Positions 26,740 to 30,197 of a stretch of DNA of 64,000 nucleotides are shown here, in pieces. The position numbers and the translations under genes are program-made. This stretch comes from Candidatus Gemmiger stercorigallinarum (lineage in GTDB: Bacteria; Bacillota; Clostridia; Oscillospirales; Ruminococcaceae). The notes under the pieces are model-generated. The model saw nothing but the letters and a program-made list of their open reading frames with translations, had not been told where the DNA came from and did not search any database. Location: the NCBI GenBank assembly GCA_019119495.1, contig DWWX01000020.1, forward strand, positions 183,738 to 247,737, read 5' to 3'. Numbering within the stretch: the stretch's first letter is position 1; the number at the start of each line of letters is the position of its first letter.

Positions 26740-27747
26740 ATGTATATTTTGGGAATCGAATCGACCTGCGACGAGACGGCGGCCGCCATCGTGCAGGACG
26801 GCCGGACGCTGGTCTCCAATGTGATCAGCACCAGCGTCAAGGAGCAGGCGCTGTACGGCGGCGTGGTGCCGGAGATCGCCAGCCGCCGCCATATCGAATA
26901 TATCAGCCCCACGGTGGAGAAAGCCCTGGCCGACGCCAACATGACCATGGCCGACGTGGACGCGGTGGCCGTGACCTTTGCGCCGGGGCTGATCGGCGCG
27001 GTGCTGGTGGGGGTCAACTTTGCCAAGGGGCTGGCCTACGCCAGCGGCAAGCCGCTGGTGCCGGTGCACCATCTGCGGGGGCACATTGCCGCCAATTATC
27101 TGACCGACCCGGAACTGGAACCGCCGTTTCTCTGCCTGGTGGCCAGCGGCGGGCACAGCCATATCGTGATGGTGGAGGATTGGTGCCGCTACAAGGTGCT
27201 GGGCCGCACGGTGGACGACGCCGCCGGCGAGGCCTTTGACAAGGTGGCGCGCACGCTGGGCCTGCCCTACCCCGGCGGCCCCAGCGTATCCGCGGCCGCC
27301 AGAACCGGAGACCCCCACGCCTACCGCCTGCCCACGCCCCACGTGGAAGGCAAATACAATGTGAGTTTTTCCGGCCTGAAAACCGCCGTCATCAACGAGG
27401 TGCACAACGCCCGGCAGAAAGGGCTGGAGATCAGCGTGCCGGACATGGCCGCCAGCTTCCAGGAGCGCATCGCCCAGATTTTGGCCAAAAAACTGCTGGC
27501 CGCCGCGGCGGATACCGGCGCAAAAACCGTCTGCCTGGCGGGCGGCGTGGCCGCCAACGGCCGGCTGCGCCAGCTGGTGAACGACGGCGTGCAGAAACTG
27601 GGCGCCAAAGTGTATCTGCCGGAGCTGAAATACTGCGGCGACAACGGCGCCATGATCGCCGCGCAGGGGTATTACGAGTATCGGGACGGCAACCTCGCCG
27701 GCCTGACGCTCAACGGCCTGCCCACCCTGCCGATCGATTACCGGTAA
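26740..27747 (+). CDS. tsaD: tRNA N6-adenosine threonylcarbamoyltransferase
   Basis: 335 residues. GIESTCDETAAAIV near residue 5 and the metal-binding VHHLRGHIAANYL near residue 107 (two His of the H-x3-H site) mark the Kae1/TsaD family; CLVASGGHSHIV and the C-terminal CLAGGVAANGRLR and CGDNGAMIA follow. It transfers threonylcarbamoyl to A37 of ANN-decoding tRNAs together with TsaB/TsaE, which are not in this window. It precedes the cat-like gene, whose leader begins about 40 nt after the stop. Confidence 0.97.
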   Translation: MYILGIESTCDETAAAIVQDGRTLVSNVISTSVKEQALYGGVVPEIASRRHIEYISPTVEKALADANMTMADVDAVAVTFAPGLIGAVLVGVNFAKGLAYASGKPLVPVHHLRGHIAANYLTDPELEPPFLCLVASGGHSHIVMVEDWCRYKVLGRTVDDAAGEAFDKVARTLGLPYPGGPSVSAAARTGDPHAYRLPTPHVEGKYNVSFSGLKTAVINEVHNARQKGLEISVPDMAASFQERIAQILAKKLLAAAADTGAKTVCLAGGVAANGRLRQLVNDGVQKLGAKVYLPELKYCGDNGAMIAAQGYYEYRDGNLAGLTLNGLPTLPIDYR

Positions 27748-27800
27748 GCGGTTTTCCGCTTGATCTCTTCGATTCTCACATTCTGAAAGGCGGTGACTGG

Positions 27801-27839
27801 ATGAAACGCGGCCTTGACTTTGCTCCATGCAAGGCTTGA
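27801..27839 (+). CDS. Putative 12-residue leader peptide of the cat-like gene
   Basis: A short ORF reading MKRGLDFAPCKA, with an AAAGGCGGTG ribosome site 5-14 nt upstream of the ATG. Its last third overlaps the first arm of the leader hairpins, the arrangement known for leader peptides of inducible cat and erm genes, where a stalled ribosome changes the folding. The peptide sequence is not one that I recognise; the argument is position and structure. Confidence 0.5.
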   Translation: MKRGLDFAPCKA

Positions 27840-27917
27840 TGGAACAAACTTGTATGGAGCATGTACAGGATTCCATTCCGGACAGCCTTGCATTTTGAGA
27901 CTGCAAATGCAAAGGAG
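27821..27917 (+). promoter_or_regulatory. Attenuator-like leader with competing hairpins
   Basis: Three pairings are possible. (A) 27821-27833 with 27849-27861, 13 bp with one G-U. (B) 27827-27836 (ATGCAAGGCT) with 27884-27893, 10 bp, which excludes A. (C) 27888-27895 (TTGCATTT) with 27905-27912, 8 bp, extendable so that it pairs part of the AAAGGAG ribosome site at 27911-27917 and excludes B. A plus C would close the cat-like ribosome site; B would open it. Confidence 0.65.
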
Positions 27918-27924
27918 AACAGAA

Positions 27925-28578
27925 ATGGAATATCATTTTACCAAGATCGACCTTAACCGCTGGTCCAGAGGGAAACTGTTTTGCACCTACATTGACCATA
28001 TGCGCATCGTCATGAGCCTTACGGTCGAATTGGATGTGACGCATCTGCTGGAGCTTTCCAAAGCCAATGGGCTGAAGTTTTATCCCTGTATGATCTGGGC
28101 GGTGTCAAAAATTATAAATGCCCACGACGAGTTCAAATACGGTTGGGGTTCTGACGGCGGTTTGATCCGATGGGATTTCGTCTCCCCTTCCTACGCAGAC
28201 TTCCACAAGGAGGACGAATCCTTCACCAAGCTTGTGACCGGATATTCGCCCGATCTGTTGGATTTCCACGCACGCTTTCTGGCAGACAGAAAATCGTACA
28301 GAGACTGCCGCGGCTTTGCCGAACGCCAGCCGCCCAACTTTTTTGATGTATCCTGCCTGCCCTGGGTCCGCTACCAGCACTTTGACGTCCATGTTTTCGA
28401 CGAGGGGACGTTTTTGGCGCCGGTTGTCACGTGGGGAAAATACACGCCGGAACACGGCAGGTATCAAATGCCGGTCAGCATGAACATCCACCACGCTGTG
28501 GCGGACGGGTTCCATTTGTCCCGATTTTTTATCGAGCTTCAGGAGCTTGTCCAGGCTTTCCCCTGCGCACAAATCTGA
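27925..28578 (+). CDS. Chloramphenicol acetyltransferase (CatA-type)
   Basis: A 217-residue CatA-like protein, normal family length. The residues that match CAT catalytic positions are all present: His190 in HHAVADGFH (CAT His195), Asp194 (Asp199), Ser143 in VSCLPW (Ser148) and Thr169 in VTWGKY (Thr174), with the same spacing between them. The CAT core motifs KFYPCMIWAVSKIIN and FLAPVVTWGKY are also visible. The expected activity is acetyl-CoA-dependent O-acetylation of chloramphenicol or a related alcohol; the true substrate is not shown. Its base and codon usage is clearly less G+C-rich than its neighbours, a sign of transfer. It is preceded by an attenuator-like leader. Confidence 0.82.
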   Translation: MEYHFTKIDLNRWSRGKLFCTYIDHMRIVMSLTVELDVTHLLELSKANGLKFYPCMIWAVSKIINAHDEFKYGWGSDGGLIRWDFVSPSYADFHKEDESFTKLVTGYSPDLLDFHARFLADRKSYRDCRGFAERQPPNFFDVSCLPWVRYQHFDVHVFDEGTFLAPVVTWGKYTPEHGRYQMPVSMNIHHAVADGFHLSRFFIELQELVQAFPCAQI

Positions 28579-28592
28579 CAAGGGGTCTTTTT

Positions 28593-29114
28593 ATGAACGG
28601 CTTTCTTTTGCTGGTCCCCTTTTTCCTGATCCGTTTCGGGCTGATGGCCCGGCTTGACCATGCTTCGCTGGCCCGTGCCGCCCATTTTGCGCCGATGCGG
28701 GGCGGGGAGCGGGCGGCGTATCTTGTGTATCAGCTGGCAAACGCCGGCATTCTGCTGTATCCGCTGTTTCTGACGGTGCCGGCGGAGCTTAGCTGGCCGA
28801 CAGCCGCGGGTGCGGCGCTGTATCTGGGCGGGCTGGCGCTGTGCTCCGCTTCCGTCATCTGCTTTGCCCGGCCGGACGCCCGCGGGCTGAACCGAAACGG
28901 CGTCTACCGCTATTCCCGCAATCCCATGTATTTGGCGTATTTTCTTTGCTTTGCCGGCATGGCAGTGCTGACCCGCTCCTGGGGGCTGCTCGCCCTGGTT
29001 CTGGTGTTTCAGGTCTGCGCCCACCGGGTCATCCTGGCCGAGGAGCGGGAATGCCTGGCGCGGTTCGGCGAACCGTACCGGCAATACATAGAACAGGTGC
29101 GGCGTTACCTGTAA
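28593..29114 (+). CDS. Isoprenylcysteine carboxyl methyltransferase-like protein
   Basis: A 173-residue membrane protein with four to five hydrophobic helices and the C-terminal ICMT/PEMT motif near residue 108: NGVYRYSRNPMYLAYFL, then a Glu-rich end (LAEERECLARFGEPYRQYIEQVRRYL). Bacterial members are often called methyltransferases of unknown substrate; some act on phospholipids. AAGGGG precedes the ATG, 14 nt after the cat-like stop, so they form one unit. Unlike the cat-like gene it has the high-G+C codon usage of the genome. Confidence 0.75.
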   Translation: MNGFLLLVPFFLIRFGLMARLDHASLARAAHFAPMRGGERAAYLVYQLANAGILLYPLFLTVPAELSWPTAAGAALYLGGLALCSASVICFARPDARGLNRNGVYRYSRNPMYLAYFLCFAGMAVLTRSWGLLALVLVFQVCAHRVILAEERECLARFGEPYRQYIEQVRRYL

Positions 29115-29133
29115 ATCTTTTCTTTTTATATGG

Positions 29134-29178
29134 GATCCCCCGGTTTGGGCGCAGGAAAGGCCCGGACCGGGGATTTTT
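29134..29178 (+). terminator. Terminator after the cat-like / ICMT-like unit
   Basis: 29135-29150 pairs with 29160-29174 (with one bulged C and two G-U pairs) and is followed by TTTTT. Confidence 0.7.
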
Positions 29179-29327
29179 GCTGCCATAAGGCGTTTCCCGG
29201 CGGTTTGGGCAACCTTTGGTCAGCACTTGCTTTCCCGCATTTTTTCCGCCGGCATCGAATACACTGGAACAGCCGGCGGATCGATCCTTTGCCGGCTGCC
29301 TGGCCGCGGCGAAGGGAGGTGCGGTGC

Positions 29328-30197
29328 TTGAAAACGGTCATCTATCTGGATGTACTGCTGCTGGTCAACTTTCTGGCCGGATACTTTCTGCTGATGGCGG
29401 CGGGGCTTCTGTCCGGCTGTGCGGCCCGGCAGCTTCGGCTGCTTGCGGGGGCCGGGCTGGCGGCGCTCTCGGCGCTTGTCTTGTTCGCGCCGGAACTGCC
29501 CTATCCGGCGCAGATCCTGTACAAACTGGGCACCGGTGCGGCGGTGGTCTGGGCGGCGTTCAGCTTCCGGGGCATCCGGCGGTTTTTGTGCGCCGTATTC
29601 TGGTACGCCACGCTCAACCTGCTGCTGGCCGGGCTGGCGCTTTTGGTCATCACGCAGACGGGCGCGCCCTTTGTCGAGACAAACAACCTGGCGGTCTATC
29701 TGCGCGTCTCGCCGCTGGTGCTGCTGGCGCTGGCGGGGGTCTGCTGCCTGGCGGTGGAGCTGGCCCTGCGGTTTTTGGGCCGGGCCGAACCGCCGGCCGA
29801 AACCATCGGCGTGGAGCTGGAGCTGTGCGGCGCCAAGGTCTGCCTGCGGGCGGCGCTGGACACCGGCTGCCATCTGAAAGATCCCATCACCTGCCTGCCG
29901 GTTCTGCTGGTCAGCTACCCGGACGCCGAGACCCGCCTGCCACAGCCGCTGCGGGAATTTTTGGACGCCTGGTTTGGCGGCGACCCGCCCGCCGAGCCGC
30001 CGGATGGGCTGCCGCTGCGGCTGATCCCCTGCACCACCGCCGAGCAGGCGGCGCTGCTGCCGGGGTTTGCGGTGGGGCGCATCGGGCTGATCTCGCCCCG
30101 CGGGGTGATGCCGCTGGACCGCACGGCGGTGGCGTTTTCCCGCCAGAGCTTCGGCAGCGAAAAATGCGAGGCCCTGTACGGGTCGGATTTCCTGTAA
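29328..30197 (+). CDS. spoIIGA: Sigma-E processing peptidase SpoIIGA
   Basis: A 289-residue protein with about five N-terminal membrane helices (residues 1-155) and a C-terminal aspartic-protease-like domain whose catalytic motif is ALDTGCHLKDP near residue 178. SpoIIGA cleaves pro-sigma-E in the mother cell after septation. The start is TTG at 29328, 7 nt after AGGGAGGTG; there is no ATG that fits. It is directly followed by sigE, its substrate, as in all endospore formers. Confidence 0.9.
   Translation: MKTVIYLDVLLLVNFLAGYFLLMAAGLLSGCAARQLRLLAGAGLAALSALVLFAPELPYPAQILYKLGTGAAVVWAAFSFRGIRRFLCAVFWYATLNLLLAGLALLVITQTGAPFVETNNLAVYLRVSPLVLLALAGVCCLAVELALRFLGRAEPPAETIGVELELCGAKVCLRAALDTGCHLKDPITCLPVLLVSYPDAETRLPQPLREFLDAWFGGDPPAEPPDGLPLRLIPCTTAEQAALLPGFAVGRIGLISPRGVMPLDRTAVAFSRQSFGSEKCEALYGSDFL

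Follow-up and report, generated by a model that had tools for sequence, protein, structure and literature searches.

The window, a stretch of 64,000 nucleotides from Candidatus Gemmiger stercorigallinarum, carries on its forward strand at 27925–28578 a gene for a CAT-family acetyltransferase of 217 amino acids (Pfam CAT, 6.4e-57). Against the NCBIfam CatA model the protein scores 202 bits, below the equivalog cut-off of 270. Its best-scoring solved relatives are CAT III, with which the motif HHAVADGFH aligns; we take HHAVADG to be the HHxxxDG motif of type A chloramphenicol acetyltransferases, so that the Pfam CAT domain and the type A motif are both present. Upstream on the same strand, at 27801–27839 (ATG at 27801, stop codon at 27837–27839), is a leader open reading frame (ORF) of 12 codons, MKRGLDFAPCKA followed by a stop. 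It has its own ribosome site, AAAGGCGGTG, at 27786–27795, which differs by one base from the AGGAGGTG type common among relatives; GGGAGGTG-like sequences stand at the same place there. A short ORF with its own ribosome site and a cat-like gene behind it had been called in the original prediction, and both are found as described. No promoter was recognised on the forward strand.

The leader ATG is 53 nt from the preceding gene, which from its sequence we take to be tsaD, and a spoIIGA-like gene follows at 29130–30197 (NCBIfam SpoIIGA, 93 bits; cut-off 209.55). In L115 and L116, the closest relatives examined within the genus, the tsaD-like protein is 96% and 92% identical and is followed directly by a spoIIGA-like homologue; at 26740–30197 of the window the leader, the CAT gene and a methyltransferase-like gene lie between the two. 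In ten further relatives with a locus (L117–L126) neither a CAT nor a spoIIGA-like gene was found in the stretch fetched, and a thirteenth relative matched but yielded no locus. No CAT of more than 40% identity over most of its length was present in the other genomes among 35 of the genus, the sole near-match covering 32 residues at 50% identity. Given this setting and the lack of a close CAT relative in the genus, the leader and the CAT gene look to have been acquired together. The methyltransferase-like gene (28593–29114, 173 amino acids) weakly matches isoprenylcysteine methyltransferase (36.9 bits; cut-off 160). It starts 14 nt past cat and may be co-transcribed with it, and it was found neither in the loci of the nearest relatives nor in the flanks of the other CATs searched.

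Helices of the leader RNA

Three mutually exclusive pairings had been proposed for the leader, and all are present exactly as proposed. Segment 1 (27821–27836) pairs through TGCTCCATGCAAG (27821–27833) with segment 2 (27849–27861) to give helix A (1:2). Its distal part, ATGCAAGGCT (27827–27836), is the exact reverse complement of 27884–27893 within segment 3 (27884–27895), giving helix C (1:3). Helix D (3:4) joins 27886–27895 of segment 3 to segment 4, with TTGCATTT (27888–27895) being the exact reverse complement of 27905–27912; this 3' arm adjoins the cat ribosome site AAAGGAG at 27911–27917, and segment 4 and the site together occupy 27905–27917. A fourth helix, B (27838–27844 with 27871–27877), was absent from the original list. 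It stacks on 1:3, its 3' arm lying within the 1:3 helix; in the window 27871–27877 can alternatively pair with the cat start region. The fold of 27786–27935 (150 nt), suggested as a check on the pairings, has an energy of -50.1 kcal/mol and is far better than those of shuffled sequences (-34.8 kcal/mol; z -4.4, 0 of 200 as good).

In a swap test, the own arms of each helix were compared with arms exchanged between 13 sequences with a leader of the window type (class 1, below) over 2000 permutations. Permutations as good as the own arms numbered seven for helix A and none for B (z -7.7), C or D. For the control pairing 2:3 in the 13 class 1 CAT leaders, 1513 of 2000 were as good (z -0.1; energies of -6.84 for own, -7.06 for swapped and -6.77 for shuffled arms), and the control 1:4 was likewise negative (1999 of 2000). 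Two unexpected pairings emerged: 2:4 (66 of 2000) and the loop of helix A with segment 3 (122 of 2000). The erm layout requires segments 2 and 3 to pair in the induced state. Since 2:3 fails the swap test and segment 3 pairs alternatively with segment 1, the erm logic is absent, and the proposal of a four-segment layout such as cat and erm genes use finds no support in these leaders.

In an alignment of the 13 class 1 rows (A1), helices A, B and D together have 13 pairs changed on both sides, compared with a shuffled mean of 4.7 (0 of 500). C with B has seven (shuffled mean 3.3; 6 of 500), its further pair types not rising above shuffles (79 of 500). Column pair 53:101, which belongs to helix C and not to A, B or D, is CG in five sequences, UA in four, UG in two, GC in one and another combination in one. 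Paired cells amount to 96.8% for A, 93.0% for D and, in a fixed alignment, 73.0% for B, a low count owing to register shifts between sequences. The window therefore holds a conserved attenuator-like leader that has four helices, A, B, C and D, with covariation, and the cat ribosome site lies in D. The original reading of an attenuator-like leader, with its own ORF and exclusive hairpins before a CAT-family gene, is upheld, covariation in homologous leaders having been one of its chosen touchstones.

On a mixed alignment RNAalifold retained helix A alone, an outcome that differing positions of B, C and D in the CAT and MFS types may explain. An Rfam search of 27500–28200 at a lax threshold gave four matches, all below gathering ('uup', 16.1 against 36.8 bits), which we take as chance; in ten leader-bearing loci the single Rfam match was a THF riboswitch in L014, apart from the leader. 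No terminator-like site was found on the forward strand at 27786–27924, the sole one on that strand, at 28503–28521, lying within cat.

Leaders before CAT, MFS and Vat-type genes

CAT relatives came from a scan of genome contigs (28 loci), from family, order and class searches at strict limits and from one plasmid. They comprise 40 distinct CATs including that of the window; six further loci duplicate one of these in the protein and 1400 upstream bases. Leader classes were assigned by eye on the upstream DNA, which for L028 is off the contig, so that 39 CATs were judged: 13 have a class 1 leader, nine a class 2 leader and 17 no leader, the last also without a covariance-model match upstream. 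The short ORF, for which retention in relatives had been expected, is thus kept in 22 of the 39 and unseen in 17, and the expectation that the same leader would precede cat-like genes elsewhere holds for the 13 distinct class 1 leaders, that of the window included. The genus also has twelve CAT loci of more remote kinship (L002–L013), none of which gave a model match, and phage records and viral contigs contained no CAT relative at the limits used.

Class 1 is the 12-codon leader of the window type, with peptides such as MKLGIDGAPCKA, MKLCIAVSPCRA and MKRGLDAAPCEA. Its records include Faecalibacterium, Flavonifractor, Dysosmobacter and one Clostridioides difficile; L018, a MAG labelled Synergistaceae, may reflect transfer or mis-binning. 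The length of 12 codons is constant in all 13 leaders, while their DNA is divergent (mean column identity 69%). The frame of cat itself is open from a TTG at 27814 and is listed by the ORF program as 254 amino acids, from which one might suppose that the leader region encodes an N-terminal extension of the enzyme. The frame is open for 81–123 nt upstream in six of the 12 other class 1 CATs, but it is closed within 33 nt in the remaining six and the distances from leader to cat occur in all three frames. We find such an extension scarcely credible.

Class 2 is a short leader the end of which pairs with the ribosome site in a two-arm hairpin, with peptides such as MKIGIVSAF, MHIGLVSTF and MKRGLDEAF. 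The peptide start is similar to that of class 1 in eight of the nine; L048 has eight codons and a different start, and L046 begins with GTG. Model R2 (below) recognises class 2 weakly (E 0.36 for L029, 0.2 for L031), so it is the peptide that speaks for kinship between the two classes. In a tree of 37 CATs the leader classes are clustered (eight changes, against a shuffled mean of 16.6; 0 of 200 as low), and with its deep forks open the tree accommodates a single leader origin or several. The CAT protein and 1400 upstream bases are identical in L043 and L051, from genomes of different families, which suggests either recent transfer or mis-binning. The CAT frame has an in-frame stop after residue 80 in L027/L044 and near the start in L031, each behind an intact-looking leader.

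At E <= 0.01 covariance model R1 found matches in 40 of the 394 genomes drawn from the order, the genome of the window included. The best 30 of these 40 matches were taken as loci, four of them being CAT; among the ten weakest, G401 is the class 2 CAT of L055. Model R2 at E <= 0.001 matched 17 of 245 genomes of the class and three of 229 of the phylum, again with the own genome included. Monoglobus pectinilyticus and Subdoligranulum variabile (leaders in L112 and L113) are cultured carriers. The 44 non-CAT loci (26 from the order, 12 from the class, two from the phylum, two viral contigs and two plasmid-labelled records) have one MFS family downstream on the same strand in 41 cases, counting one stub and L073, in which the leader start was unread. 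The two plasmid-labelled records were retrieved with the MFS protein as query, and the unbiased count is therefore 39 of 42. The notion of a cat-specific leader was not borne out: most of the non-CAT copies precede an MFS pump, and the genes behind the leaders belong mostly to resistance-like families. Behind the leader there is an S33-hydrolase-like gene in L063 and a gene with a weak ceramidase match, under the cut-off, in L068; in L075 the MFS gene was not found behind it. In L107 the greater part of the MFS gene seems to have been lost, the leader being followed by no more than its final 59 residues.

The MFS protein is a distant relative of Mef (MefC 101 and 124 bits for the two proteins scanned; cut-off 870), and the leader peptides of this type approximate to M-x-L-[CA]-I-x-x-A-[PL]-C-K-V. 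In 18 leaders of other genes A, C with B, and D each gave 0 of 2000 in the swap test; C and B merge there into a single long helix. The same leaders give 45 of 2000 (z -2.0; weak, not nil) for segment 2 with the 3' stretch. This value, a general resemblance and the Mef relative behind most non-CAT copies might be held to indicate an attenuator of the erm type, in which stalling on segment 1 frees 2 for 3, or of the mef(E) type, in which a terminator is relieved. Against this, the 2:3 pairing is absent from the class 1 CAT leaders, the leader has no terminator-like site, and the peptide is unlike the MTASMRLR given for mef(E) in PMC4335068. We judge both types to be very improbable here.

In MFS-type leaders (for example L064) the GCTCC of segment 1 is complementary to the GGAGC of the gene's ribosome site. 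The 1:4 pairing has a z of -9.2 against shuffles in such leaders, yet 425 of 2000 permutations are as good; it could be a second mode of site closure. A scan of viral contigs with the leader pattern gave four matches, two of which were confirmed by R2 (L108 and L111). In these the leader and MFS gene are at the contig edge and phage-like genes, recognised by eye, are on the contig; a phage-borne system was considered and set aside, and we read them as prophage neighbours.

A third form accompanies other acetyltransferases. In L030, L032, L035 and L040 a second leader is found just behind the class 2 CAT (R2, E 0.0097–0.4), its peptide (MKLCIVFAGIVLKK, MKRCIVFAGTVLLK and alike) preceding an acetyltransferase of the Vat/CatB type (NCBIfam Vat_ABCDEFH, 245 and 255 bits for the two proteins scanned; cut-off 300). 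Second leaders in L016, behind a class 1 CAT, and in L028 read VKRCIAATDIVK and VKRCIVITDIVK, and the gene that follows looks, by its sequence, to be of the Vat/CatB kind. In these class 3 leaders the arm CCGGAATAG (CCGATATAG in L016 and L028, CCGGAACAG in L035) begins in codon 8 and pairs with its complement over the gene start, and all six Vat-type leaders combine a similar peptide start with this third hairpin form. The CAT and Vat/CatB-type genes are in tandem, each with a leader, in L016, L030, L032, L035 and L040; in L028 the second gene of the tandem has its own leader. A peptide pattern drawn up post hoc has 47 matches in 1.2 Mb (both strands), all at such leaders, a number that is no frequency since the loci were chosen for these genes and several overlap.

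Among 46 distinct 12-codon leaders, residue 3, which is outside the paired arm, is L in 32, residue 4 is C, A or G in 42 and residue 5 is I or L in 35; K at residue 2 is limited to 23 of them. At residue 8 Ala is found in 41 and Ser in two; L027 and L057 have P and F there. A codon comparison places the highest variation of leader codons 3 and 4 at their third positions. Nucleotide 16 of the 12-codon leaders, the first base of codon 6, is nearly always G (entropy 0.15) and falls outside the four helices of the model.

Ribosome position and the predicted switch

The ribosome was modelled with a footprint of 14 nt upstream and 15 nt downstream of the first P-site base, and a fold was computed for each codon. 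In transcripts cut after segment 3, with codon 4 in the P site, all 13 CAT leaders form 1:3 and no 1:2 (mean pairs in 1:3 and 1:2 of 9.4 and 0.0, compared with 5.4 and 4.6 without a ribosome). Without a ribosome 1:2 is ahead in five of the 13 and 1:3 in seven, with one tie; the window has 12 pairs of 1:2 and none of 1:3. In cut transcripts of other genes 1:3 outweighs 1:2 without a ribosome in 21 of 22. As 1:3 is so often ahead without a ribosome, the OFF state would depend on the order in which the helices fold. Which codon is favoured varies with the edge of the footprint, being 5 at +13, 4 at +15 and 3–4 at +17.

In a walk along full-length leaders the ribosome site is most open at codon 4–5 in 41 of 53 leaders, compared with 53 of 265 shuffles. 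Mean openness of the real leaders is 0.29 without a ribosome, 0.44 at codon 4, 0.47 at codon 5 and 0.32 at codon 9 and beyond. Openness is higher in shuffled leaders at all positions (0.46–0.52, with 0.46 lacking a ribosome and 0.52 at codon 5), so that a ribosome at codon 5 brings the real leaders roughly to the level of unstructured sequence and no further. The mean at codon 5 is modest, 0.60 for CAT leaders and 0.42 for others. Openness above 0.6 is reached by five of 13 CAT leaders at codon 4 and six of 13 at codon 5, and by six of 40 other-gene leaders at each of these codons; without a ribosome it is reached by none. Five leaders (L070, L099, L103, L104 and L106) hardly respond, and in L080 and L082 the arm is one codon later and the peak is at codon 6. 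The first arm begins at leader nucleotide 22–23 in the 12-codon leaders, in class 2 except L048 and in class 3; among 22 leaders of other genes the start is at nucleotide 22 in 15, 19 in four and 25 in three. This arm start coincides with the predicted reach of the ribosome front with codon 4–5 in the P site under the +15 footprint.

In all nine class 2 leaders the site is 0.00–0.01 open without a ribosome and 0.57–0.90 open with codon 5 in the P site; it opens from codon 3–5 and then stays open, codon 9 included. The start region in all six class 3 leaders is 0.08–0.17 open without a ribosome and 0.35–0.51 open at codon 5 and later, the ribosome site itself never being well closed (0.56–0.83 without a ribosome). 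Since classes 2 and 3 are open at later codons too, codon 5 is not singled out in them.

It might be argued that the hairpins merely set mRNA stability or a low basal translation and that the short ORF is incidental. Such a view can point to the 17 of 39 distinct CATs without a leader and to the BLOSUM similarity of codons 2–7, which at 0.85 in frame barely exceeds the 0.75 of one shifted frame (0.23 in the second) and, taken alone, is a weak sign of selection at the peptide level. However, the length, start and ribosome site of the ORF are kept across CAT, MFS and Vat-type genes despite different hairpins, and the opening of the site is concentrated at one place. We therefore consider an incidental ORF highly unlikely.

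Similar mini-genes before several kinds of resistance-like gene in gut Clostridia, some of them with different switches, look like a shared antibiotic sensor that is read via the ribosome. We think it probable that the window leader is a translational attenuator that reads the position of the ribosome on the leader, for which we infer stalling, an inducer and induction. Without a ribosome on the leader, helix A would form first, leaving segment 3 free for segment 4 and the site closed. A ribosome reaching the stop codon would cover segment 1, 3:4 would form and the site would be closed again. A drug-induced stall at about codon 4–5 would cover GCTCC, the first half of segment 1, and leave ATGCAAGGCT free to capture segment 3 in a helix C stacked on B before transcription reaches segment 4; the site would then open. 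The signal for drug-dependent stalling would be the nascent peptide, which most often reads M-K-x-[CGA]-[IL]. Comparable signals would be combined with two simpler hairpins ahead of other CAT genes and of Vat-type genes, and with the same three-way switch ahead of Mef-like MFS pumps. Our best reading is that these peptides form a new family, stalling in response to a drug and coupled to three or more RNA switches.

The drugs modified by CAT and Vat enzymes have their binding site in the peptidyl transferase centre. From these targets, and from the tandem genes with a leader each, the likely inducer is a peptidyl transferase centre antibiotic (a phenicol, streptogramin A or similar).

A different stall position, codon 9, has also to be weighed. 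According to PMC8987054, stalling by chloramphenicol and linezolid favours Ala, then Ser or Thr, in the penultimate position. Ala8 would suit such a stall with codon 9 in the P site: residue 8 is Ala or Ser in 43 of 46 12-codon leaders, A or T is there in all nine class 2 leaders (residue 7 in the eight-codon L048) and all six of class 3, and the class 2 site is also open with the ribosome at codon 9. In the walk, however, a ribosome at codon 9 covers segment 1 wholly and leaves class 1 closed to much the same degree as when no ribosome is present (0.36 and 0.36, respectively, for CAT; 0.31 and 0.26 for others), so that class 1 would have to act without 1:3 capture, for example by mRNA protection or an unmodelled fold. 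In every class residue 8 starts the paired arm and is hence also constrained by the RNA, for which reason a peptide cause and an RNA cause look alike in the sequence. A stall at codon 9 strikes us as rather unlikely.

We propose more tentatively, as a serious possibility, that M-K-[LR]-[CG]-[IL] serves as a portable sensor of drugs, coupled to three or more RNA switches before CAT, Vat-type and MFS genes, the three-way form acting as a band-pass reader. If so, the sensor would be the protein counterpart of a riboswitch aptamer, and the three-way form would be ON only during a stall at codon 4–5 and OFF without a ribosome or with a completed leader.

Comparison with known attenuators

Most of what is known of inducible resistance leaders comes from individual genes of staphylococci, streptococci and Bacillus. 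Examples are given in PMC5418344. In gut bacteria, where the present leader precedes several types of gene, resistance is usually judged by genes alone; the leader offers a hint, from sequence only, of antibiotic-inducible control. It also marks the clade of MFS pumps as probably drug-related and makes one stalling peptide comparable across three RNA switches. Titles and abstract beginnings in the open-access literature contained no description of the leader, which is weak evidence of absence, and the available portion of PMC10219788, on a tool for upstream ORFs, mentions neither MFS nor Clostridi-.

Known cat leaders use one hairpin, and in cat-86 and the staphylococcal cat genes the ribosome stalls near codons 5–6, with the hairpin at the end of the leader. 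The window leader resembles these in its short ORF with a ribosome site of its own before a CAT gene, the site of which is predicted to be closed in RNA. In contrast to cat-86, the partner of the cat site in the window is segment 3, which lies beyond the end of the leader ORF, and in place of a hairpin from ORF to site there is the 1:2/1:3/3:4 switch with helix B. A single hairpin of the kind generally described for cat-86 is thus absent from the window and is found in the class 2 CATs, the leaders of which have the simple shape of that type. PMC4191407 cites cat-86, and 'cat' appears in Table 1 of PMC5418344.

In the ermC type a stall on the leader ORF leads to an alternative structure that exposes the gene's ribosome site, as set out in PMC5418344. 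The mechanism proposed for the window would share this stall-driven exposure, and the leader has 1:2 and 3:4 hairpins with the ribosome site in 3:4. It differs from ermC in the absence of 2:3 from class 1 CAT leaders and in the modelled position of the stalled ribosome, which leaves half of segment 1 uncovered. The mef(E)/msr(D) leader, MTASMRLR, is alike in preceding an MFS pump of the Mef kind; attenuation there is transcriptional, with a terminator (PMC4335068), whereas here the peptide is different, the pump is only a distant Mef relative and there is no intrinsic terminator between leader and gene. The attenuators of the phenicol exporters fexA and cmlA are likewise listed in Table 1 of PMC5418344.

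Attenuation of resistance genes by ribosome stalling is a known kind of control. What appears to be new is the family of peptides, the layout 1:2/1:3/3:4 and the use of one peptide start over three RNA forms and several types of gene.
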